Assembly: GCA_035516255.1 (NCBI GenBank) | Contig: DATJAL010000052.1 | Span: 186,001-250,000, forward strand | Length of the DNA: 64,000 nucleotides | Source: Chitinivibrionales bacterium | GTDB taxonomy: Bacteria > Fibrobacterota > Chitinivibrionia > Chitinivibrionales > FEN-1185 | Reading direction: 5' to 3' | Part shown: positions 44,864 through 58,486 of the stretch, piece by piece | Position numbering within the stretch: position 1 is the stretch's first letter | Layout: the number at the start of each line of letters is the position of its first letter | Made by a program: the position numbers and the translations under genes | The notes under the pieces: model-generated | Told to the model about the DNA's origin: nothing | Database searches by the model: none | The model's input: only the letters and a program-made list of their open reading frames with translations

Positions 44864-45961
44864 TTATCGTGTCAATGTGATCGCGCCGCTTGACTGATGC
44901 ATCCCGTCCGAAAAGCTGATGCAGTAAACGCCGCGGCGCACCGGCAGCCGCTCCCAGGCCACGGTATGCCGCCCTGCCGGCTGCGACCGGATCCAATCGC
45001 TAAGGTCCGCAACAAGCCCGCCCCTCAGATCAAAGAACCGTAGAAATGCGTTTGCGGGTTCCTGAATGTTAAACGATAGACCGCTGGCATTTTTTTCCAT
45101 GGATGGTGTGGCTGCGATTGGTTTCGCGAATCCATTTTGCACGTTGGTTTTCTTCTGATACCACCGTATCCAGTCGACGGTCAGGTATTGCGGCAGCACC
45201 GTCGAGGCGTCCGGGTTGCCGGCAAACCCGACTCCGCCGAGCGCCAGGTCGATGGTGAGCGAATGCGGCTGATGGAATTCTGACATGTACGCCGGAGTGA
45301 TGTCAACCTGAAAATAGGGCGTTGCGGCGCTGTCCAAATAAAACGACAGGTTTTCCTCGTCCCATATGAGGGTGAAGACGTGGAATTGGTCTGCCATGCG
45401 GCCGGGGACCTGGATTGATTTCTTGAGCTCGTTGGGAAAATCCGCAAGATCGGTGTAATGGACAACCGCGAAATTCGAATTGTCGCCCCGATCATCCGTA
45501 TAATTCTCGCCGCAGGCCATTTCGAAGATGTCGATCTCGCCGCAGGCCGGCCACGGTGTGTTGTAGGGCGGGTTGAAGTCCGAACCGAGCGTCCATACCG
45601 CGGGCCATACGGCCTGGCTGTAGGGCGCCTTGAGCCGTACCTGTATTTTCCCGTATTGCAACTCGATCTTCTGCCGCGTCGTGATGCGCGAGGAGGTGTA
45701 TTGCGCGGAGCCCATGAGCTGCCTCCGCAGTTCAATCACCAGGCAGCTGTCGTTGAAAGAAAGGTTATCGCCCGGGGTATAAAACTGCAGCTCGCCGTTT
45801 CCCCAGCCCTGGTCCCCGGTGCCCACGTCGTAAGTCCAGGAGGCGGTGTCGAGAGCATTACCATTGAACTCGTCCGACCACACCAGGCTCCAAGTGCTGT
45901 CCTGGCCGGCGCACCAGGCAACGATTCCCAACAGGGCAAGGATGGTTCCGAAAGATTTCAT
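44864..45961 (-). CDS. Secreted glycoside hydrolase family 16 protein
   Basis: 365 aa from ATG 45961 (AAAGGA upstream). Signal peptide to ~residue 19 (ILALLGIVAWCAG). Catalytic GH16 domain of residues ~20-270: LVWSDEFNGNALDTASWTYD, catalytic GEIDIFEMA (E-x-D-x-x-E) near residue 145, and VDWIRWYQK at the end. The last ~85 residues are a FlgD-like/T9SS-type sorting module (FLRFFDLRGGLVADLSDW, AGRHTVAWERLPVRRGVYCI). It should hydrolyse beta-1,3 or mixed-link glucans (laminarinase or lichenase) outside the cell. Confidence 0.92.
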   Translation of the reverse strand: MKSFGTILALLGIVAWCAGQDSTWSLVWSDEFNGNALDTASWTYDVGTGDQGWGNGELQFYTPGDNLSFNDSCLVIELRRQLMGSAQYTSSRITTRQKIELQYGKIQVRLKAPYSQAVWPAVWTLGSDFNPPYNTPWPACGEIDIFEMACGENYTDDRGDNSNFAVVHYTDLADFPNELKKSIQVPGRMADQFHVFTLIWDEENLSFYLDSAATPYFQVDITPAYMSEFHQPHSLTIDLALGGVGFAGNPDASTVLPQYLTVDWIRWYQKKTNVQNGFAKPIAATPSMEKNASGLSFNIQEPANAFLRFFDLRGGLVADLSDWIRSQPAGRHTVAWERLPVRRGVYCISFSDGMHQSSGAITLTR

Positions 45962-46159
45962 GAATGGTCCTTTGGCCGGCAATCATTCATAAATATAATA
46001 ACCGATCAGGTTTTATGCACTTCAATGCGACAGAAGAATATGAGTTTTTTTCTTGCCTCGATTGTTTTATTCCACATATATTTGATTGTTCATTTACGGT
46101 GTTTTACCGAGGAATCATCCCATATTTATTCTACTTACCCTAACCCTTTGGAGGGCGTA

Positions 46160-47686
46160 ATGAAAAAAGTAATTTTCACCTTTGCTCTGTTGGTCCCGGC
46201 CATGACCTTTTTCTGGAGTTGCAACCAGAACCCGGCAGGCTCGAAAACGGATACACTGGTCTACAAAGACACCATGTATATCGCCGACACTTCCAAGGCA
46301 TTGAGCCAGATATATGCCAATTTTGCCAATTCGGACATTTCCGATCTTACCTTCCTCAAGGGCATGACGTCGCTGCAATGGCTGAACCTCGACAGCAACT
46401 TCTTCAGCGACTTGTCTCCTTTGTCAAGTCTAGTCAACCTGCAATACCTCAATTTGAAGAACAACTACGCGGTGAGCAATATTTCGGCCCTGGCCGGTCT
46501 CAGCAAGCTCACCTATCTGAACCTTGAAGGCGACTGGAGGATCACGGACATCACTCCGCTGGCCAGTCTTACCAACCTTCAGGATCTCAGCCTGCTCAGC
46601 GCCAACGGCGTCACCGATATCTCCACGCTTTCGAAACTGACCAACCTTACTAAGCTCGATCTCGGATGGGCAAACGGCATCGCCACCTACGGTGCCTGCT
46701 CAACGCTCACCAAGCTGGAATGGATCCGTCTTGCCGGAAAGGGTGCGACCAGTGTGTCAGGAATCTCCGGCCTTCCGAACCTCCAGACGATTCTGCTTGC
46801 GCACAACTCGCTCACGACAATCGCCCTTTCCAATCTCCCGAAAGTCACGACGATTGATTTCGAGTATTGCGATTCCGTCCAGGGGGTCAATCTGAGCAAT
46901 ATGCCGGTCATCGACACCATCGATCTTTCCAATTGCCGCGGCCTTATGAAGCTCACGCTCACCACGCTCCCCGGGCTCAAGTCCCTGATTTTCGGCAGTG
47001 GTTACCTTACCAACAGCGATATCGCGCTGACCGGCCTCGGCGGCATCGAGAGCATCACGGGAAATTTTGAAAAAGTCACCGACCTCTCCTTTGCAAAGAA
47101 CCTGACCTCACTTACGGATCTGAACGTCACCTGCGAGGCGCTCACCGATATTTCGGCTCTCAGCAGCCTTACCGGTCTCACGAGCCTCACCATCCGCGGG
47201 GACGGACTTGTCGACGTCACGCCGATCCAGAATTGCGTTAACGTCACGACCTTGAGCCTGTCTTATTGCGGCTCGGTGCAGGACATATCGGCGCTCAGCC
47301 ACCTCACCAATCTTCAGAACCTGAATTTGAGCAACAACCGGTCGATCACCTCGGTCAGCGTCGTCAACAGCCTCACCAAGCTCCAGGTGCTCAACCTGAC
47401 CTACTGCCAGAGCCTCGACACAACCCTGCCCGACATGTCGGCGCTTACCCAGCTTAAGTCGCTCAATATAAACAACTGTTCAACGCTTAAAAACGTGGCC
47501 GGGCTTGCGTCGCTGACGGGCCTCAATTTCATTGATATCCGGTACAACGGCCTCACCCCGGCCACTGTCGGGCCGGTGCTTGCGACCATGCAGTCCGGGG
47601 ACACGCTCAAGTATTCAATAGGCCAGCTCGACAGCGCGCAGATCGCCCAGATCACCGCCGCCGGCGTCATACAGCCCGCGTACTGA
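46160..47686 (+). CDS. Leucine-rich-repeat surface lipoprotein
   Basis: 508 aa. TGGAGGGCGTA precedes ATG 46160; the frame opens upstream at 45458, but that part is a shadow. Leader VIFTFALLVPAMTFFWSC with Cys near 21 as probable lipidation site. From ~residue 45 about 20 internalin-type LRRs of ~22 residues (e.g. LTNLQDLSLLSANGVTDIST, SKLTYLNLEGDWRITDITPL). Presumably a surface-exposed binding protein; its ligand is unknown. Divergent from the GH16 gene and followed by a strong terminator. Confidence 0.88.
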   Translation: MKKVIFTFALLVPAMTFFWSCNQNPAGSKTDTLVYKDTMYIADTSKALSQIYANFANSDISDLTFLKGMTSLQWLNLDSNFFSDLSPLSSLVNLQYLNLKNNYAVSNISALAGLSKLTYLNLEGDWRITDITPLASLTNLQDLSLLSANGVTDISTLSKLTNLTKLDLGWANGIATYGACSTLTKLEWIRLAGKGATSVSGISGLPNLQTILLAHNSLTTIALSNLPKVTTIDFEYCDSVQGVNLSNMPVIDTIDLSNCRGLMKLTLTTLPGLKSLIFGSGYLTNSDIALTGLGGIESITGNFEKVTDLSFAKNLTSLTDLNVTCEALTDISALSSLTGLTSLTIRGDGLVDVTPIQNCVNVTTLSLSYCGSVQDISALSHLTNLQNLNLSNNRSITSVSVVNSLTKLQVLNLTYCQSLDTTLPDMSALTQLKSLNINNCSTLKNVAGLASLTGLNFIDIRYNGLTPATVGPVLATMQSGDTLKYSIGQLDSAQIAQITAAGVIQPAY

Positions 47687-49614: not shown

Positions 49615-51567
49615 ATGAGCACGTCGTCAAAATATCTTCTAGTGGTGGGATCTTTCCTGCTCGCGGCCGTTCTTACGATCGGCGTTATTTATTATCGGAC
49701 CTCCATCGCAGACGGCAAACAGGTTGCCCAGCCCACGGGGATCGTGATGGAGTATCCGTTCCACGGAACGATGTTCCCGCCGGATATTGCCGCCCCGACG
49801 TTCAAGTGGGAGGACACGCGGCCCACCGCTGACAAATGGAACATCACGGTGCGGTTCAAGGACAATCCCGACACGCTCCACTTTACTTCCAGTAAAAAGA
49901 AATGGATCCCTTCCGGAGATGTGTGGGAAAAAATAAAGCTCAATTCGCTTGGAAAAACGGCCGTTTTTGAGATCCGCGGCGTGAGCGGCGCCAGGCCGAA
50001 AAAAGTCCTTTCGGGCGGCCAGGTGACGTTCCAGACTTCGCCCGACTCCGTGGTTGCCCCCATCTTCTACCGCGAAGTGAACTTGCCTTTCATGGAGGCG
50101 GTAAAGGACCCTACCAATATCCGGTGGCGTTTCGGCTCCATCTCATCCGATGAACAGCCGAGAATCGTGCTGCAGAAACTGCCGGTGTGCGGCAACTGCC
50201 ATTCGTTTTCGAGGGACGCCAAGGTCATGGGGATGGAAGCCGATTGCGGCAACGACAAGGGCGCGTACGCCATCATGCCTGTCAAGCAGGACATCGTGCT
50301 CGACCGGTCGAAAATCATCAGCTGGTCCTTTTACAAAATGCCTGGCGAAGACAAGGAGCCCACGTTCGGACTCAACAACCAGGTGTCGCCCGACGGCCGT
50401 TACGTCGCGGGCACGGTCAAGGACCAGGCGATCGCCGTGTACCGTCCCAACCTCATGTTCTCGCAGCTGTTCTTTTTTGTAAAGGGAATGGTCTCGATCT
50501 ACGACCGGCAGACCAAGGCGATGTACGTTCTGCCAGGCGCCAGCGACCGGCGGTACGCGCAGACCAATGCGACGTGGAGCCCGGACGGCAAGTACCTGGT
50601 GTTCGTCAGGTGCAAGTCCTATAATCTTGACATTTTCAACCGCCAGCGCCGCGCCCTTATCCAGGGCCCCGAGGCCGAGCAGTTCATCGAGACGGAGGGC
50701 AAAAACATCAAATACGACCTGTGCCGCGTGGCGTTCAACAACGGCAAGGGTGGCACCCCCGAGCCGCTCAAGGGCGCGTCGAACAACGGCATGAGCAATT
50801 ATTTCGCGAAATATTCTCCGAACGGAAAGTGGATCGCGTTCTGCCGGGCGAACAATTTTATTTTCCTCCAGCCCGACTCGAAGCTCTACATCATGCCGGC
50901 GGAGGGCGGCGAGGCGCGCGAGCTGTCGTGCAACATGTCGATCCTCAATTCGTGGCACAGCTGGTCGCCCAACAGCAAGTGGCTGGTGTTTTCCTCAAAA
51001 GTCAACGGCCCGTATACCCAGCTCTTTCTCACGCACATCTCCGACAGCGGGACGAGCTCGCCGCCGGTCGTGCTCGACCGATTTACGAGCGTCGACAGGG
51101 CGGCGAACATTCCGGAATTCGTCAACGGACCGTCCGATGCGATTCTCAAGATCCGCGAAAACTATCTCGATGCGTATTCGTACCACCGGATCGCCGAGGC
51201 CTTCCATCTTGCCGGCGATTTCGAGCACGCGATCCCGGCTTGGCGGAATGCGATCAAGTATAATCCGAGGAATTATTTCGCGCACAACAATCTCGGCGCG
51301 CTTCTCTACCAGAAAGGGCTTAAGGATGATGCGGCGGAGGAGTTCAAGGCCGCCATCAATCTCCACATTGACGACGAAGACCATTACGAGGCGCACACCA
51401 ATTACGGCAAATACCTTCTTGAAAAGGGCGAGATCGACAAGGCCATCGCGGAATTGTCCATCGCCTATAAGTTGCACCCCGACAGCATCACCAAGAAAAA
51501 TCTTGAAACGGTGCGCAGCAACAAGAAGACCATTGCCAAGCAGGAAGCGCTCCAATACAATGACTGA
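49615..51567 (+). CDS. CxxCH-containing beta-propeller and TPR protein
   Basis: 650 aa. N-terminal membrane anchor (residues ~6-27). C192-G-N-C195-H196 (LPVCGNCHSFSRDAKVMGME) is a heme c-binding motif, so covalent heme is possible. Residues ~250-500 have WD40/TolB-like PD40 blades (QVSPDGRYVAGTV; TWSPDGKYLVFVR; KYSPNGKWIAFCR; SWSPNSKWLVFSS). Residues ~510-640 are TPRs (AFHLAGDFEHAIPAWRNAIK; LYQKGLKDDAAEEFKAAINL). Exported, and tethered on the periplasmic side. The stop overlaps the ATG of the next gene by 8 nt, so they are coupled. Confidence 0.85.
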   Translation: MSTSSKYLLVVGSFLLAAVLTIGVIYYRTSIADGKQVAQPTGIVMEYPFHGTMFPPDIAAPTFKWEDTRPTADKWNITVRFKDNPDTLHFTSSKKKWIPSGDVWEKIKLNSLGKTAVFEIRGVSGARPKKVLSGGQVTFQTSPDSVVAPIFYREVNLPFMEAVKDPTNIRWRFGSISSDEQPRIVLQKLPVCGNCHSFSRDAKVMGMEADCGNDKGAYAIMPVKQDIVLDRSKIISWSFYKMPGEDKEPTFGLNNQVSPDGRYVAGTVKDQAIAVYRPNLMFSQLFFFVKGMVSIYDRQTKAMYVLPGASDRRYAQTNATWSPDGKYLVFVRCKSYNLDIFNRQRRALIQGPEAEQFIETEGKNIKYDLCRVAFNNGKGGTPEPLKGASNNGMSNYFAKYSPNGKWIAFCRANNFIFLQPDSKLYIMPAEGGEARELSCNMSILNSWHSWSPNSKWLVFSSKVNGPYTQLFLTHISDSGTSSPPVVLDRFTSVDRAANIPEFVNGPSDAILKIRENYLDAYSYHRIAEAFHLAGDFEHAIPAWRNAIKYNPRNYFAHNNLGALLYQKGLKDDAAEEFKAAINLHIDDEDHYEAHTNYGKYLLEKGEIDKAIAELSIAYKLHPDSITKKNLETVRSNKKTIAKQEALQYND

Positions 51568-52678
51568 GAGCTCGCAAGCCCGCGGGGAGGGCGGCCACAC
51601 TGCTGTTTTCGGCCGCGGAAAAGTAAAAAGCGTCTATGCCACGCTGCGGCCCGCGGCCGGCGAAGACGGCGCCTCGTTTGCGCGCCGACTCGTTGACCTG
51701 CTCAACAAAAACAACGCTTCATTTGTCAAATGCGACGTGTTCGGGTCCTGCGGCGCCTACAACGGGTTCATGCGGGAGCTCGAAACCGCTGTGCCGCCGC
51801 ACGGCCTGCCCGTGACGTGGGTCGAGGGCGCCGGATGCGGCGGGCACCCGATCGCGGGCGCAGCGGTCCGTTGCGTTACAGGCGTTGAGGCCGAAACCAT
51901 ATTTCTCAATACCAGACCCGTGGGCAGGCTTTACGAGGATGACTTCGCCCGCTTCTGCCTTCTGGGCGGAATCCATTCCAATGCGCCCACGGTCATGCCC
52001 GGCCAGCAGACCCAGATGACGCTGGAGGCGCTGGAGGCCGCGCTCAACGCGGCCGGCATGGACATGACCAACATCGCGCGTACCTGGTTCTACAACAACT
52101 GCCTGCTCGAGTGGTACGATTCGTTCAACGCGGCAAGGACCCGTTTCTACAGGGAGCGGGGCATTTTCGACAGGATGCTTCCGGCGAGCACCGGCATAGG
52201 CGGGAAGAACCCCCATGAGTCGGCGCTGGTTGCCGGAGCCGAAGCGGTCGTGTTCAAACATGCCAAGGCCTCCATGGAGGCCGTTGCCTCGCCGCTCCAG
52301 AACCAGGCCTTCAGCTACGGAAGCGCGTTTTCGCGGGCGGTGGAGTTGAAGACGCCGGCGGAGCGCCGGCTTCTTGTTTCGGGGACCGCAAGCATCAACG
52401 AGGCGGGGAAAACGGTGTTTGAAGGCGATCTGCACGGACAGATAAAGCAGACGCTGGACGTGGTGGAGGCGCTGCTTCGCTCGCGGCAGATGGGCTGGAC
52501 CGACGTGGTGCGCGCAATCGCCTATGTAAAGCAGCCCGGTTTTGCAAAGGATTTCTCGAAGTATTGCGCGTCGTCCGGATTGCCCGCGCTCCCCTGGATC
52601 ATCGCGCACAACGAAGTATGCCGGGACAACCTGCTGTTCGAAATCGAAGTGGATGCCGTGACGGCCGCCGCCGGTTGA
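51560..52678 (+). CDS. RidA/chorismatase-superfamily protein
   Basis: 372 aa from ATG 51560; the frame opens further up at 51137, but that part is a shadow of the previous gene. The C-terminal half (from ~residue 270: RRLLVSGTASINEAG, FEGDLHGQIKQTLDVVEALL, AIAYVKQPGFAKDF, VCRDNLLFEIEVDAV) has the YjgF/RidA-like chorismatase (FkbO/Hyg5/XanB2) pattern, including the VSGTASI and VCR-x-x-LL-x-EIE segments with the C-terminal Glu. The N-terminal half (residues ~30-200) is less typical. If a chorismatase, it would make hydroxybenzoate from chorismate; a Rid-type deaminase is the other choice. Between the CxxCH protein and the MFS-synthase gene. Confidence 0.72.
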   Translation: MTESSQARGEGGHTAVFGRGKVKSVYATLRPAAGEDGASFARRLVDLLNKNNASFVKCDVFGSCGAYNGFMRELETAVPPHGLPVTWVEGAGCGGHPIAGAAVRCVTGVEAETIFLNTRPVGRLYEDDFARFCLLGGIHSNAPTVMPGQQTQMTLEALEAALNAAGMDMTNIARTWFYNNCLLEWYDSFNAARTRFYRERGIFDRMLPASTGIGGKNPHESALVAGAEAVVFKHAKASMEAVASPLQNQAFSYGSAFSRAVELKTPAERRLLVSGTASINEAGKTVFEGDLHGQIKQTLDVVEALLRSRQMGWTDVVRAIAYVKQPGFAKDFSKYCASSGLPALPWIIAHNEVCRDNLLFEIEVDAVTAAAG

Positions 52679-52729
52679 CGCAAAAAACCTCCTCGGCGCC
52701 TGCTTGCCGCCGCGCCCGGAAGCTCCGCT

Positions 52730-55700
52730 ATGAAAGAAAACGGTCCGCTCAAAAAAGAACGCCAGCCGGCCCTTCTCTCCGCCACTACGAGCGCCCGTTG
52801 GGTGATGGCGATTTTTTTCTGCTCGGGCGTCTGCTCCCTCATCGACGAGGTGGTCTGGGTCAGGCTCATTAAGTTGACTTTAGGCAATACCGTCTATGCA
52901 TCGAGCGTCGTGGTCTCGGTGTTCATGGGCGGCCTTGCGCTCGGGGCGCTCGCCATGGCGCGGTGGGCCGACCGCGTCGCCCGACCGCTGCGGCTCTACG
53001 CGCTGCTCGAGATCGTTGTTGCGCTGGTGACCGCCGTGCTTCCCGCCGCGCTCGCCGCCGCCGACGGCGCGTACCGGCTGCTTTTTGTCCCGCTCCAGGC
53101 GTCACCGCACCTGCTCATCGCCATGCAGGTCATTGTATCGTCGGCCATCCTATTAGTGCCCACCGTGCTCATGGGGAGCACCTTGCCGCTGCTGGGACGC
53201 TATGTCACTGCGCTCCAGGAGCGTATCGGCAGCAGCGTCGGCGGGCTCTACGCAATTAACACGCTGGGCGCAGTAACGGGCTGCTTTCTTGCCGGGTTCG
53301 TGCTCATGCGGGCAATCGGCGTGATACCCACCCTATATGCCGCGGCGGGACTCAACGTGTTGGTCGCGCTTGCGGGATGGCAACTGTCGGGCAGAAGCGC
53401 CGCCTTGCTACGGGCGGCGGCGCCGGCGGTTTCCGAAAAGTCAATTCCCCCGACGGCGGGCGCCGCGCGCTGGCTGCTCGGCTCCCTCTTTTTTGCGAGC
53501 GGCTGCATCAGCATCGGCTATGAGCTCATCTGGATGCGCAGCATCGTGATCCCGCTGGGTGGATTCACCTATGTTTTTTCGGCGGTGCTGACCATCTACC
53601 TGCTCGGAAACGTGCTCGGCGTGTGGATCGGAACCTTCCTGTCGCGCCGCGTGCGCAATCCGGCGTTCGGCACGGCGCTCTGCCTGTCGCTTCTTGGCGC
53701 CTGCGGCATTTTTTTTGTGCCCTGGCTTGTGGAATGGCTCAAGCGTTTGTTCGATCTTTCAAACGGCGCTCTGCTTCCGGTGATGCAGAACATCGCCGGC
53801 TGGGTGCTGGTGCGGCCGCTGCTGTACTGCCTCGTCTTGTTCCTGCCCGCCGCAATGATCATGGGAATGGGTTTTCCGCTCGCGCTTCAGGCCTGGAATT
53901 CGCGGACGCGCGGCGCGGGAAACACCACCGGCTCGGTGTACGGCATCAACACGATCGGCGCGATCTGCGGCGGCATTGTCACCGGCTTCGTGCTTATCCC
54001 GCTGCTGGGCGCGCAATGGTCGGTTGTCGGGCTGGGGCTGCTCGGCGTTGTTCTCGGCGCTGCAGCGACGCAGGCGTTTTTCACGCCCAGAAATATTGCG
54101 TTGCGGACGGTGTACGCCATGCTCGCCCTGGCTGTCGTCGCCGCCGTCGTCCTGGTGCCCTCGAATCTTTTCGTAAAAAGAATCGTTGCGATTCCCGGCC
54201 TGCAGACCGTTGCGGTGCGGGAAGGCGTCACCGCCACGGTTTCGGTCACGCTGCGGCCGCAGGACGGCGCCATGGAGCTCACCTCCGACGGCGTGCGCGT
54301 TGCCGGCGACGACATTCACCGTTCGGCGCAGCAATGCCTCGGCAACATGGGGGTTCTGCTGCATCCCGATGCGCGCAGGGTCCTTTCGGTGGGGTTCGGC
54401 TCTGGCGAGACCGTGAAATGCCTTTCACGGTATCACCTGCGGAAAATCGACTGCGTGGAAATCGCGCCCGAACTCATCGACCTCGCGTGCAAGTATTTCC
54501 GGCATATCAATCTGGGCGATTGGAAGGACTCCTCGCTGTCGATCATCAGCATGGACGCGTTCAATTACATGCACGTGACAAACCGGACCTACGACGTGAT
54601 CATCAACGATGCGAACCTGCCTTCGCACTCGGCCTGCGCGCCGCTCTTTACAAAGGAACATTTCCTGAATTGCGCAAACCGCCTCAATCCGCGCGGGCTT
54701 TTTTTCACTAAGCTGCCGCTGGCCGATATTTCGGAGAGCTCGTTCAACAGCATCCTGGGCACTTTTCTGGAGGCCTTTCCGCAGGTGACGCTGTGGTTTC
54801 CCGTGACGCGCCCCTACATCTTTTTTTACCTCATCGGCTCGCGCCAGGAGATGCTTTTTTCCCCTGAAAACATCGACCGGATGCTTGCCGCCGACACCGT
54901 CCGCGCCGCCTCGGGTTTCCTGCGGTTCCACAGCAGCCATGACGTGCTGAGTTGCTACATCGCCGACCGGAACGATCTTTCCCGGTACCTCAAGGCGTAT
55001 CACCGGAACGCCAGCAACACGCCCTACATTGAATTCAATGTCGATCAGAAGGCGCTGCCGCTGCGGCCGTTCTTTAAGCAGCTTACCGCCGCGGTCCGCA
55101 GCGCTTCGCTGTATAATCACATCGACTGGGGCGGCTTCTCCGATGAACAGAAAAGCAGGTGGCTCGCCGACCAGCGCATCCAGGACGAGGCCACGGCATG
55201 CGTGCTGCAAACGGTGGGCGAGGAGGATAGGTGGCAGAAGCTCTCAATATGCGGAAAAGGGCTCAGGGCCGTGCCGGGCAACGCGGTACTGCTCGATGAG
55301 GAGGACGGCGACCTCCAGGAGGCGCAGAGCATGCTCAATATGAACAAGGCGGATTTCATTGGCGACGTCGCCAATGCCATGCTGATCAGGGACTCGAGCA
55401 GCGCAGCAGGATGGATACTGTTTTCGTGGACGCTGCAGCGCGGCGGCCGGGTTTCTGAAGCGCTTGCTGCCGCGCAGTCGGGAGTCGCACGGGCGCCCTG
55501 GAGTGTTTCGGCTCTTGACAATTGCGCCACCATCCTTCTGCAGTCCCAGGCGTTCGACGCCGCGATTTCCCGGTGCGACACGGCGCTGCGCCTGGCACCC
55601 GACCGCGCCCGGAGCCGCATCGTGCGCGGCATGGCGCTCTACGCAAAAGGCCAAATCGATGGTGCCATCAAAGAATTTACTAAGGTGGTTCAACTGCAGC

Positions 55701-55852
55701 CCCGCAATGCGCACGCTTGGTGCATTCTGGGCGATATTTACCGCGAAAAAAATGAACGCAGGCTTTCTGAACAGGCGTACCGGGAGGCGCTGAAGATCGA
55801 CCCGTATTATAACGATGCGCAAAACGGGTTAAACGCGCTTGGACAGCTCTAG
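52730..55852 (+). CDS. MFS transporter-spermidine synthase fusion with TPR tail
   Basis: 1040 aa. Residues ~20-480: 12-14 membrane helices (MAIFFCSGVCSLIDEVVWVR opening, MGGLALGALAMARWADR, MGSTLPLLGRYVTALQERIG, GGIVTGFVLIPLLGAQWSVV). Residues ~490-720: Rossmann spermidine-synthase-like domain (VLSVGFGSGETVKCL near 547, IDCVEIAPELIDLACKYF, SMDAFNYM, VIINDANLP). Residues ~850-1035: TPRs (KGQIDGAIKEFTKVVQLQPR; RLSEQAYREALKIDPYYNDA). Fused MFS/spermidine-synthase proteins are widespread, but their reaction is unproven. 51 nt after the RidA-like gene, so probably in the same operon. Confidence 0.87.
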   Translation: MKENGPLKKERQPALLSATTSARWVMAIFFCSGVCSLIDEVVWVRLIKLTLGNTVYASSVVVSVFMGGLALGALAMARWADRVARPLRLYALLEIVVALVTAVLPAALAAADGAYRLLFVPLQASPHLLIAMQVIVSSAILLVPTVLMGSTLPLLGRYVTALQERIGSSVGGLYAINTLGAVTGCFLAGFVLMRAIGVIPTLYAAAGLNVLVALAGWQLSGRSAALLRAAAPAVSEKSIPPTAGAARWLLGSLFFASGCISIGYELIWMRSIVIPLGGFTYVFSAVLTIYLLGNVLGVWIGTFLSRRVRNPAFGTALCLSLLGACGIFFVPWLVEWLKRLFDLSNGALLPVMQNIAGWVLVRPLLYCLVLFLPAAMIMGMGFPLALQAWNSRTRGAGNTTGSVYGINTIGAICGGIVTGFVLIPLLGAQWSVVGLGLLGVVLGAAATQAFFTPRNIALRTVYAMLALAVVAAVVLVPSNLFVKRIVAIPGLQTVAVREGVTATVSVTLRPQDGAMELTSDGVRVAGDDIHRSAQQCLGNMGVLLHPDARRVLSVGFGSGETVKCLSRYHLRKIDCVEIAPELIDLACKYFRHINLGDWKDSSLSIISMDAFNYMHVTNRTYDVIINDANLPSHSACAPLFTKEHFLNCANRLNPRGLFFTKLPLADISESSFNSILGTFLEAFPQVTLWFPVTRPYIFFYLIGSRQEMLFSPENIDRMLAADTVRAASGFLRFHSSHDVLSCYIADRNDLSRYLKAYHRNASNTPYIEFNVDQKALPLRPFFKQLTAAVRSASLYNHIDWGGFSDEQKSRWLADQRIQDEATACVLQTVGEEDRWQKLSICGKGLRAVPGNAVLLDEEDGDLQEAQSMLNMNKADFIGDVANAMLIRDSSSAAGWILFSWTLQRGGRVSEALAAAQSGVARAPWSVSALDNCATILLQSQAFDAAISRCDTALRLAPDRARSRIVRGMALYAKGQIDGAIKEFTKVVQLQPRNAHAWCILGDIYREKNERRLSEQAYREALKIDPYYNDAQNGLNALGQL

Positions 55853-56113: not shown

Positions 56114-58486
56114 TCAGTCGGTAAGCCCGAAGCCGTACGCATACATTCCGGTCTGGCCATCGCCGGAGTTGATGGGCTCCTGGGCGCTGCTCGTGGGCCA
56201 TGTCACCGGCAGCTTCCCCGAGAACTTGTAATCACCGAACAGCACGTCGGCTATGCCTTCTCCTTCCGTGCCCGGCAGACACGACCATATGAATGCGTCG
56301 CAATTGTTGATGACCGTGGAAATGTCGAGCACTCTTCCCGCGATCAGCATTCCGATGACCTTCTTGCCCGCCGTATGCGCCGCGGCAACCTCGTTGATCA
56401 CGGCCTGGTTCGTGCCCGTCGCATCATTCCCCGTCAAGTTGATGTTGGGAAATGAGGTCTCGGCATAAGGATTCTCGCTGAACACCGCGAGAATGTAATC
56501 GGAATTGCCCACCGCGTTCGGGCTTGATACAAAGCTCACCGTGGCGCCCACCGCCTGGCACGCGGTGCGTATCGACGTGCCGCCGCCGCCCGGGATCGCG
56601 CCCTGCTGGCCCTGCCAGCTCACGGTCCATCCGCCGCACTGGATGCCGATATCGTCTCCCGCCTGTCCCCATATCGCAAGGTTCGCGGTCTTGGGCATGG
56701 GCAGGACGTTGTTGGCGTTCTTGAGCAGCACCTGCGAGGCGCGTACGCATTGCCGTGCCACGTCCCTGTGCGCTGCGCACCCGACCAACGGGGTGAGCCG
56801 GCGGTCGGCGAGCGGATTGTAACCCGAATTGAACATGCCCATCCATGCCTTGACGCGCAGCACGCGCTTGCATGCATCGTAGATTCGCGCCTGCTGGGTT
56901 GCGCCCATGGCGGCCATCTTCACAAAATTATTGTTATTGTTTGGATCATTTGTCGCGATGATTCCTATGTTGCAACCCGGCGCCATGGGTACGTCGACGC
57001 CGGCTCCCTCGCAGGTGGGCAACGGCCATGATGCTTCCCAGTCACCCACAACGAGGCCTTTGAAACCTGGGGAAGGAGGGGTGCCTGTGTTGGTTGAGTC
57101 TTTCAGCCAACCTGTTATTAGCGTCTTGTTCTGATGCATTGGCGTGCCGTCACACCAGCTGGAAAATGAGGGCATGACCGTGGCGACGCCTGCGGCAACT
57201 CCGGCCGCATAACCGGGCAGATTGATTGCCCGTGCCGTTGCATCGGGACCTACCGTCTCGCCCTGGTTGACGCCGTTAGCCGTATTGCCGTCGCCTGCGA
57301 AATGTTTGATACATGCCGCGTATGACAATGGGCAGGACAGGTCGGTAAGTTGAGCGCCCAGCACGGCGTGCCTCGCCATGATCTGCGTGCGCTCAGGAGT
57401 TTCGCAGAAGCCCTCGTACGAGCGGCCCCAGCGGTCGTCGCGAATTACCGCGATACAGGGACCGAATCCCCAGTTGCAGCCCGAGCCGCGCACTTCGAGC
57501 GCGGCAACGCGCCACGCCTTCTGCACCAGCAGAGAGTCCTGGACTGCGCCCAGCGCCAGGTTGTGCGGCAGCATTGTGGCGCCCGGAACCGCGCTTGCCC
57601 CGTGCACAAAGTCGTAGGCCGCCATGATAGGGATCTTGAGTGCGGTGCCCATCATTGCCGTTTGACAACCGTCAACCTGGTCGGCGCAAGCCGAGGCGCT
57701 GGAGCCGACCAATGCGCCACCGCCGCCGAATATGCTTCCGCAGTTGTTGGAAGCACATGAGGATGCAAGATTGCCGATGCTGTTCGGCGGCATGCAGAGT
57801 TGTCCGTACCTCTGGAGATCGGTCATTTGGTTGAATAGCGCGTCGACCTTGCTCTCGATGTCAATCGGCGCAATGGTCACGTTGCCAACGTTGTCGGAAT
57901 AGGTTTGAATGGGAACATAAGTGGGGGCATAGCCGGTCTTTCCGACACGGATCGAATCGATGACCGCGAGCTTCTTAGCCATAACCATGGGCGTGTTCGA
58001 TGACGAAAGCTCATATACGGAAGCCGAACCGGTTCTCAGACCGGTTTTTAACAGTTTACGATAGATCACCTGGTTTCCCGCCCTGATCTTCATCAGGTAA
58101 ACGGATTTTGAAAGTTTTGAGGTGATGGGCTCAAGAGCATAGATGCCTTTTTCGATTCTGGCATTATAAACCGATTCCACTTTTTTTCCACTGATATCAA
58201 AGATGTCGATGGAGACCGGCCCTTCTCCAAGCAGGGTTAGAGTCGAATTCTGCTGAAGAGGTTGGCTTGTGGAAACCGAATAGCCGCCGAAGGTCCCATC
58301 TGACTTGGAAAAATCCCATGACAGGCGCTTTGCAATGCTCTGGTACGTGACTGTGGCATTTGCTACCGGTGACCCATTTGCGAGAACGACTTTTCCTGAA
58401 ACCGAAAAGTCAAGGCTTTGGGCAAATACTGTTGTATATGCCAGCAAGGCTACAGCAGTGAGTGAAATAAATTTTATACTTTTCAT
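56114..58486 (-). CDS. Secreted glycoside hydrolase family 3 (beta-glucosidase-like) with N-terminal sorting-type module
   Basis: 790 aa. Signal peptide (ISLTAVALLAYTTVFAQS). Residues ~25-205: carboxypeptidase-regulatory-like beta domain (VSGKVVLANGSPVANATVTY) and a T9SS/FlgD-type segment (IDIFDISGKKVESVY, EKGIYALEPI, SVYLMKIRAGNQVIYRKLL). Residues ~215-560: GH3 barrel (MTDLQRYGQL; IKHFAGDGNTANGVNQGET) with nucleophile D482 in GLVVGDWEAS. C-terminal GH3-C domain (ASQVLLKNANNVLPMPK, SGKLPVTWPTS, YAYGFGLTD). It likely hydrolyses beta-glucosides or xylosides. Many Cys may form disulfides. Confidence 0.9.
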   Translation of the reverse strand: MKSIKFISLTAVALLAYTTVFAQSLDFSVSGKVVLANGSPVANATVTYQSIAKRLSWDFSKSDGTFGGYSVSTSQPLQQNSTLTLLGEGPVSIDIFDISGKKVESVYNARIEKGIYALEPITSKLSKSVYLMKIRAGNQVIYRKLLKTGLRTGSASVYELSSSNTPMVMAKKLAVIDSIRVGKTGYAPTYVPIQTYSDNVGNVTIAPIDIESKVDALFNQMTDLQRYGQLCMPPNSIGNLASSCASNNCGSIFGGGGALVGSSASACADQVDGCQTAMMGTALKIPIMAAYDFVHGASAVPGATMLPHNLALGAVQDSLLVQKAWRVAALEVRGSGCNWGFGPCIAVIRDDRWGRSYEGFCETPERTQIMARHAVLGAQLTDLSCPLSYAACIKHFAGDGNTANGVNQGETVGPDATARAINLPGYAAGVAAGVATVMPSFSSWCDGTPMHQNKTLITGWLKDSTNTGTPPSPGFKGLVVGDWEASWPLPTCEGAGVDVPMAPGCNIGIIATNDPNNNNNFVKMAAMGATQQARIYDACKRVLRVKAWMGMFNSGYNPLADRRLTPLVGCAAHRDVARQCVRASQVLLKNANNVLPMPKTANLAIWGQAGDDIGIQCGGWTVSWQGQQGAIPGGGGTSIRTACQAVGATVSFVSSPNAVGNSDYILAVFSENPYAETSFPNINLTGNDATGTNQAVINEVAAAHTAGKKVIGMLIAGRVLDISTVINNCDAFIWSCLPGTEGEGIADVLFGDYKFSGKLPVTWPTSSAQEPINSGDGQTGMYAYGFGLTD

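Follow-up and report, generated by a model that had tools for sequence, protein, structure and literature searches.

Genes 1 and 2 of the three-gene cluster described here form a two-gene unit that recurs in several bacterial phyla, and the second gene encodes a protein with the fold and the active-site residues of a chorismatase. The favoured, though tentative, explanation is that a cytoplasmic 3-hydroxybenzoate-type chorismatase serves a membrane-anchored c-haem propeller or other extracytoplasmic redox proteins. The window, a 64,000-nucleotide stretch of DNA from a Chitinivibrionales bacterium, carries the following genes.

49615..51567, + strand: gene 1, 650 aa, a membrane-anchored PD40 beta-propeller with one CxxCH and C-terminal TPRs
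51560..52678, + strand: gene 2, 372 aa, a chorismatase-fold enzyme of the RidA superfamily
52730..55852, + strand: gene 3, 1040 aa, an MFS / spermidine-synthase-like / TPR fusion, a neighbour outside the conserved unit
51560..51567, + strand: overlap of genes 1 and 2, 8 nt

The ORF coordinates agree with an earlier reading made from the sequence alone, which had reported the three ORFs, the 8-nt overlap and a gap of 51 nt between genes 2 and 3. The overlap suggests translational coupling of genes 1 and 2. The two genes are adjacent in the window and at six further loci (L043, L053, L055, L124, L153 and L207), and the pair recurs in Fibrobacterota, Planctomycetota and Bacteroidota. Most gene-1 homologues, however, do not adjoin gene 2, and no common theme was found among their other neighbours.

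Fold and active site of gene 2

A scan of genome contigs with the single gene 2 sequence gave no matches; its relatives were found by an alignment-based scan, and the wider family comprises at least 574 matches. When a profile of 77 relatives was compared with the PDB, the best matches were the chorismatases Hyg5 (5ag3, E 2.5e-27) and FkbO (4bps, 1.9e-25), while the best RidA entry followed at 4.5e-15. The AlphaFold2 model of gene 2 (pLDDT 95.4, pTM 0.94) gave the same ranking in Foldseek, where the top seven matches were all Hyg5 or FkbO chains (E 4.9e-20 to 6e-18, TM 0.63-0.73) and RidA came next at 1.5e-7. Of the types represented by Hyg5 (CH-II), FkbO (CH-I) and XanB2 (CH-III), the comparison covered the first two. 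The following residues of gene 2 correspond to the active site of Hyg5.

52382..52384, + strand: Gly275, equivalent to Hyg5 Gly240, conserved in 77/77 relatives
52619..52624, + strand: Cys354-Arg355, equivalent to Hyg5 Cys327-Arg328, conserved in 77/77
52640..52642, + strand: Glu361, equivalent to the catalytic Glu334 of Hyg5 (E338 in FkbO), conserved in 77/77

The columns of Hyg5 G240, C327, R328 and E334 were invariant in the alignment of the 77 relatives. The marks of CH-II enzymes and the chemistry of Glu334 have been described (PMC7170507); in the Nat-hyg5 numbering used there the marks are Gly231 and Cys318, which are G240 and C327 of Hyg5, and Gly164, which would correspond to Gly212 of gene 2 (76/77) if the 9-residue Hyg5 offset holds at that position. 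Gene 2 shares the full-length fold, the catalytic Glu and the CH-II Gly and Cys with the two chorismatases, together with Arg, Tyr, Phe and Gln pocket residues, but the identity is only about 20% and the N-terminal part is divergent. The sequence-only reading had proposed comparing a predicted structure with FkbO, Hyg5 and XanB2 and looking for the chorismatase active site; both residues and fold were retained in the profile alignment and in the model. Chorismatase chemistry is thus well supported by sequence and model, and a small aromatic product is reasonable. Gene 2 scored 44 bits against TIGR04444, the curated FkbO/Hyg5 subfamily (cut-off 325), and 16 bits against PF21168 (cut-off 27), so its activity may have diverged. 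No signal peptide was apparent by inspection.

The C-terminal domain of gene 2 belongs to the same superfamily as the RidA/YjgF/UK114 imine deaminases (PF01042, Ribonuc_L-PSP), with a score of 46.7 bits that exceeds the cut-off of 27.3. Taken with the score below the curated chorismatase cut-off and with neighbours drawn from haem proteins and CcsA and not from aromatic-acid pathways, this would fit a protein that has the chorismatase fold but makes no aromatic acid, acting instead as a Rid-type reactive-intermediate hydrolase or as a chaperone-like protector of haem proteins or of cytochrome c maturation. We consider such a role unlikely: gene 2 is a long two-part protein in which the column of RidA Arg105, the substrate-binding arginine of the deaminases, holds V, I, L, A or T in 77/77 aligned relatives, the Hyg5 G/C/E set is invariant instead, and the chorismatases are far ahead of RidA by both fold and profile.

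The propeller protein encoded by gene 1

Profile matches in gene 1 identified PD40 repeats and TPRs. The features of the protein are listed below.

49633..49698, + strand: membrane anchor or uncleaved signal segment, approximately residues 7-28, from the sequence; a helix spans residues 3-37 in the model
50188..50202, + strand: predicted haem-c attachment motif CGNCH (C192-G-N-C195-H196), from sequence and conservation
50956..50958, + strand: His448, invariant in 36/36 sequences of the alignment
51172..51486, + strand: TPR region, residues 520-624, from a domain match

The CGNCH at residues 192-196, noted in the earlier reading, is the only CxxCH in the protein, and a CxxCH arose by chance in 3 of 2000 shuffles of the gene 1 sequence. 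The form C-x-N-C-H was kept in 36/36 aligned sequences, down to approximately 20-25% identity. Since gene 1 has an N-terminal membrane anchor, the propeller is probably extracytoplasmic, which is where c-type haem is attached. The conserved CxxCH, the anchor and the presence of ResB/CcsA in the genome together give gene 1 the sequence hallmarks of a c-type haem protein, and covalent attachment of one haem is predicted. His448 is a candidate for the second haem ligand or for a residue of the haem pocket.

Alternatively, the CGNCH could be a metal or disulphide site in a TolB-like binding protein that lacks redox activity. The motif is single, and the structure model, built from 7 sequences (pLDDT 77), matched generic propellers, mainly S9 peptidases; no cytochrome was among its top structural matches, the one exception being a weak match with the hydrazine synthase chain 5c2v_B. 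At this pLDDT and with generic matches only, the model carries no claim. The retention of C-x-N-C-H over such distances, the exported topology and the System II genes in the genome make a site of this kind improbable. Gene 1 is not a hydrazine synthase alpha subunit, as a Pfam search gave no match to PF18582.

Genomic contexts of the gene-2 family

Members of the gene-2 family were found beside extracytoplasmic systems, in four kinds of context, 1) with hydrazine-synthase-like genes and ResB/CcsA, 2) in imelysin-DHOR-CcsA operons, 3) with PSCyt2/PSD1-DUF1501 systems and 4) with gene-1 homologues. Genes encoding a CxxCH accounted for 34 of 296 within two positions of a family member and for 1 of 181 further away (Fisher p 8e-7, although related loci are not independent). 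The Pfam families at the adjacent position (n=87) included PSD1/PSCyt2 (10), CCP_MauG (7) and HZS_alpha (3), and those two positions away (n=74) included DUF1501 (9) and HZS_alpha (4); none of these was among the families listed for 95 distant control genes. Most of the PSCyt2/PSD1-DUF1501 neighbours lack a CxxCH, so haem is not shared by all of the contexts. A supposed PSD1 in L097 proved to be an antisense ORF and was left out of the counts.

In Fibrobacterota, one operon has the order HZSalpha-HZSbetagamma-porin-gene 2 relative-ResB-CcsA. Relatives of gene 2 thus lie inside or next to the kind of non-anammox operon, encoding hydrazine-synthase-like alpha and beta-gamma proteins, that is described in PMC12758564, the accessible part of which mentions no RidA, chorismatase or CcsA partner. 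The genome of the window also has ResB/CcsA, HZSalpha and HZSbetagamma with a porin, but at scattered sites away from the cluster, and gene 2 is the only member of its family found there. PSD1 gave no match in this genome, but neither did it in the control genomes, so the result does not argue for its absence. In Bacteroidales, imelysin and DHOR occur in an operon with a gene-2 relative and CcsA, a version of the EfeUOB / imelysin-DHOR iron-uptake operons (PMC3143127), none of whose genes are in the cluster studied here.

Chorismatases are known from polyketide, pigment and ubiquinone biosynthesis, whereas the gene-2 family sits with haem or DUF1501 systems and not with genes of those pathways. 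It could still be that gene 2 is a true chorismatase of a separate cytoplasmic pathway, whose hydroxybenzoate goes into a quinone, a pigment or a siderophore. In that case it would lie close to haem genes because they are regulated together, for instance in response to iron or anaerobiosis, and not because of a common substrate. The contexts do vary from clade to clade, and the imelysin and DHOR of the Bacteroidales operon come from families that have been connected with iron uptake under Fur control (PMC3143127). A separate pathway nevertheless has a low probability, because family members are packed very closely against gene 1, porin, ResB and CcsA, and because the Pfam tallies at one and two positions from the family show no recurrent genes for pigments, quinones or siderophores. 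There was likewise no recurrent downstream aromatic-acid gene near family members. A link to DAHP synthase was considered and discarded; the gene is directly beside a gene-2 relative in L074 and a short distance away in L136, approximately the chance level.

Gene 3 and the proposed role of the pair

Gene 3 combines MFS_SpdSyn, Spermine_synth and TPR domains, so that both outer genes have TPR tails, as had been noted from the sequence. It belongs to the fused MFS/spermidine synthases of NF037959 (126 bits, cut-off 40), but differs in its TPR tail and in altered dcSAM and catalytic motifs: on alignment to 1inl, GGGDGG becomes VGFGSG and DSTDP becomes DANLP, so the aminopropyltransferase motifs are poorly kept. 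The family is present in 132/168 genomes of the phylum.

The sequence-only reading had joined all three genes in a pathway, or a complex in the membrane, for making and exporting or modifying a small molecule, with the TPR tails for docking. The genes are closely spaced on one strand, and one gene-1 homologue (L049) is adjoined by a gene-3 relative, but the proposal is very unlikely. A sister species has an unrelated gene in place of gene 3 at the syntenic position, while genes 1, 2 and the flanks persist; no gene-3 homologue lies near any of 80 gene-2-family loci; and members of the gene-3 family are frequent in genomes without genes 1 and 2. The expected co-occurrence therefore holds for the pair and fails for gene 3, which seems to be adjacent by chance and to have a role of its own; the small molecule survives as a plausible product of gene 2, while the docked three-protein complex is unsupported.

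In the chorismatase explanation favoured here, Glu361 of the cytoplasmic enzyme would protonate the enolpyruvyl methylene of chorismate, and Gly275 and Cys354 would direct the reaction along the CH-II (Hyg5) route to 3-hydroxybenzoate and pyruvate. Gene 1 would be an outward-facing, membrane-anchored propeller with a TPR tail and one c-type haem, matured by the ResB/CcsA of the same genome. Once out of the cytoplasm, the phenolic product or a derivative would be used by the haem protein there, as a substrate, as an electron carrier or as the precursor of a cofactor. For other family members the product may supply hydrazine-synthase-like, MauG/DHOR-type or PSCyt2/PSD1-DUF1501 systems. The broader proposal, that the phenolic made from chorismate by a widespread chorismatase family (Fibrobacterota, Planctomycetota, Verrucomicrobiota, Bacteroidota and others) is needed in one of these capacities by extracytoplasmic haem enzymes, including hydrazine-synthase-like and MauG/DHOR-type proteins and CxNCH propellers, is possible but rather doubtful.

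No published description of a link between chorismatase-like and haem proteins was found in a collection of open-access papers. The gene-2 family retains the complete active-site marks and lies preferentially beside c-type haem systems of unknown function. Its occurrence across many phyla next to haem and related exported proteins suggests an unrecognised connection between aromatic metabolism and extracytoplasmic redox chemistry. Hydrazine-synthase-like complexes outside anammox, PSCyt2/PSD1-DUF1501 systems and imelysin-DHOR operons gain a shared candidate metabolite, and the proposal, if true, would reveal a so far undescribed aromatic branch that feeds periplasmic redox chemistry.

Organization of the cluster and separation of gene 3 from the conserved pair

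The positions of the three open reading frames, the overlap of the first two, the gap preceding the third, their domains and the CGNCH motif were re-derived from the window sequence, which belongs to a Fibrobacterota genome, and agreed with the sequence-only reading. The cluster and its flanking genes are:

45458-47686, + strand, leucine-rich-repeat protein, flanking the cluster
49615-51567, + strand, gene 1, propeller-TPR protein (CGNCH, residues 192-196)
51560-52678, + strand, gene 2, chorismatase-fold RidA-superfamily protein
52730-55852, + strand, gene 3, MFS/spermidine-synthase-like/TPR fusion
56114-58486, - strand, glycosidase-like (GH3-like) secreted protein, identified by inspection, flanking the cluster

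Gene 1 has, in order, an N-terminal membrane anchor, a domain with a single CxxCH, a PD40 propeller and TPRs; inspection of the gene 2 sequence revealed no signal peptide. A second gene 1 paralogue in the same genome (L044:6787-8733, C35), about 62-65% identical, lacks a chorismatase-like neighbor.

The sequence-only interpretation, a pathway or membrane complex of all three genes, was partly supported, in that genes 1 and 2 form a recurring pair, but gene 3 had to be dropped. The sister species (L043) keeps the block GH3-like protein, gene 2, gene 1, acyltransferase and leucine-rich-repeat protein, with synteny of both flanks, while an unrelated 1283-residue gene occupies the gene 3 position, and no gene 3 homologue was found among 80 public loci of the gene 2 family. 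The gene 3 family occurs in 132 of the 168 genomes of the phylum, including many of one large genus without a gene 2 match, and in gene 3 itself the aminopropyltransferase motifs of the synthase-like domain are altered and lack residues present in working spermidine synthases. One exception is L049, where a gene 3 relative adjoins a gene 1 homologue.

Gene 2 as a chorismatase-like protein

The best PDB match of gene 2 in a single-sequence search was FkbO (5.6e-7). A profile of 77 relatives matched Hyg5 (2.5e-27) and FkbO (1.9e-25), with the best RidA protein far behind (4.5e-15). The AlphaFold2 model was confident (pLDDT 95.4, pTM 0.94), and its first seven Foldseek matches were all Hyg5 or FkbO chains, covering nearly the whole chain. 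The chorismatase active-site residues are retained: Gly275, Cys354, Arg355 and Glu361, aligned with Hyg5 Gly240, Cys327, Arg328 and Glu334, are invariant (77/77), as are Arg174, Trp176, Tyr186, Arg193, Tyr253, Phe257, Arg259 and Gln294, while the RidA deaminase arginine column is V, I, L, A or T. In described chorismatases the glutamate acts as the acid protonating chorismate, and the glycine and cysteine mark the CH-II subfamily, which forms 3-hydroxybenzoate (PMC7170507); by alignment, gene 2 shares all three with Hyg5, a CH-II enzyme. Gene 2 scores below the curated FkbO/Hyg5 subfamily cut-off. Given these profile and fold matches, the conserved residues and the missing RidA arginine, the most fitting description of gene 2 is a chorismatase-like enzyme from a sister family, with predicted activity.

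Association with haem proteins

Gene 2 relatives occur in 19 of 168 Fibrobacterota genomes; 71 have some gene 1 match, mostly TPR-only, and far fewer a full-length homologue. The two genes adjoin in the window and also in the sister species (65% and 59% identity), in two genomes from a different Fibrobacterota family (L053, divergent orientation; L055, gene 2 first) and in two genomes outside the phylum, one from Phycisphaerae (L124; 53% and 43% identity) and one from Phycisphaerales (L207). In a Prevotellaceae genome (L153), gene 2 adjoins a gene 1 version without TPRs. Because each genome has thousands of genes, this recurrence is not chance, although the Fibrobacterota cases may share ancestry. 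The haem motif of gene 1 is conserved.

An alignment scan detected at least 574 gene 2 relatives, and 80 of these loci were retrieved. CxxCH genes made up 34 of 296 genes within two positions of the family and 1 of 181 five or six genes away (p 8e-7, with related loci lacking independence and a simple longest-ORF rule used for gene calling). Four contexts recurred, whose families were absent from the listed families of the more distant control genes. In the first, seen in several phyla, HZSalpha lies immediately upstream together with a propeller-MauG protein that looks like a fused HZS beta-gamma; the Fibrobacterota operon is HZSalpha-HZSbetagamma-porin-gene 2 relative-ResB-CcsA, and 17 Fibrobacterota loci include HZSalpha (10), HZSbetagamma (11), ResB (8) and CcsA (7). 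The second is PSCyt2/PSD1 with DUF1501, present at 15 of the 49 loci in the closer group. The third, in Bacteroidales, is imelysin-DHOR-porin-haem lipoprotein-gene 2 relative, with CcsA adjoining several; imelysin-DHOR operons have been tied to iron uptake (PMC3143127). The fourth is the pairing with gene 1 homologues.

Several loci have further features. The Fibrobacterota operon at L060-L076 (e.g., L060:1867-13346), HZSalpha-264-residue protein-HZSbetagamma/MauG-porin-chorismatase-like-ResB-CcsA, is a hydrazine-synthase-like gene set from outside the anammox bacteria and includes genes for its own cytochrome c maturation. A Nitrospiraceae protein (L102:1705-5721) combines an HZS_alpha domain with an FGE-sulfatase (formylglycine-generating-like) domain, and its gene lies directly upstream of the MauG-propeller gene and a gene 2 orthologue. 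At L074:8371-12844, DAHP synthase/chorismate mutase, siroheme-synthase-like and glutamyl-tRNA-reductase-like genes come after the chorismatase-like gene and share its strand. The Bacteroidales operon with CcsA (L128, L129, L132, L137, L138, L147) comes from gut and rumen genomes, whose relatives may be cultivable.

Possible role

HZS-like alpha and beta-gamma proteins have been described in non-anammox bacteria by authors who conclude, from the absence of key residues, that these proteins are unable to make hydrazine; the passages concerned mention no RidA or chorismatase partner (PMC12758564). No description of a link between chorismatase-like proteins and extracytoplasmic haem systems was found in a search of an open-access library.

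Gene 2 would convert chorismate to 3-hydroxybenzoate and pyruvate in the cytoplasm, haem would be attached to gene 1 outside the membrane, and the phenolic or a derivative would reach the outside as a substrate, electron carrier or cofactor precursor. The link between gene 2 and haem proteins could instead reflect co-regulation, by iron or anaerobiosis, or protection of the haem proteins. The genome of the window also encodes HZSalpha, HZSbetagamma with a porin, and the cytochrome c maturation proteins ResB with CcsA, each at a site of its own, and no second member of the gene 2 family was detected in it; thus, gene 2 may serve these proteins besides gene 1. The association found is broader and more testable than the three-gene one originally proposed.
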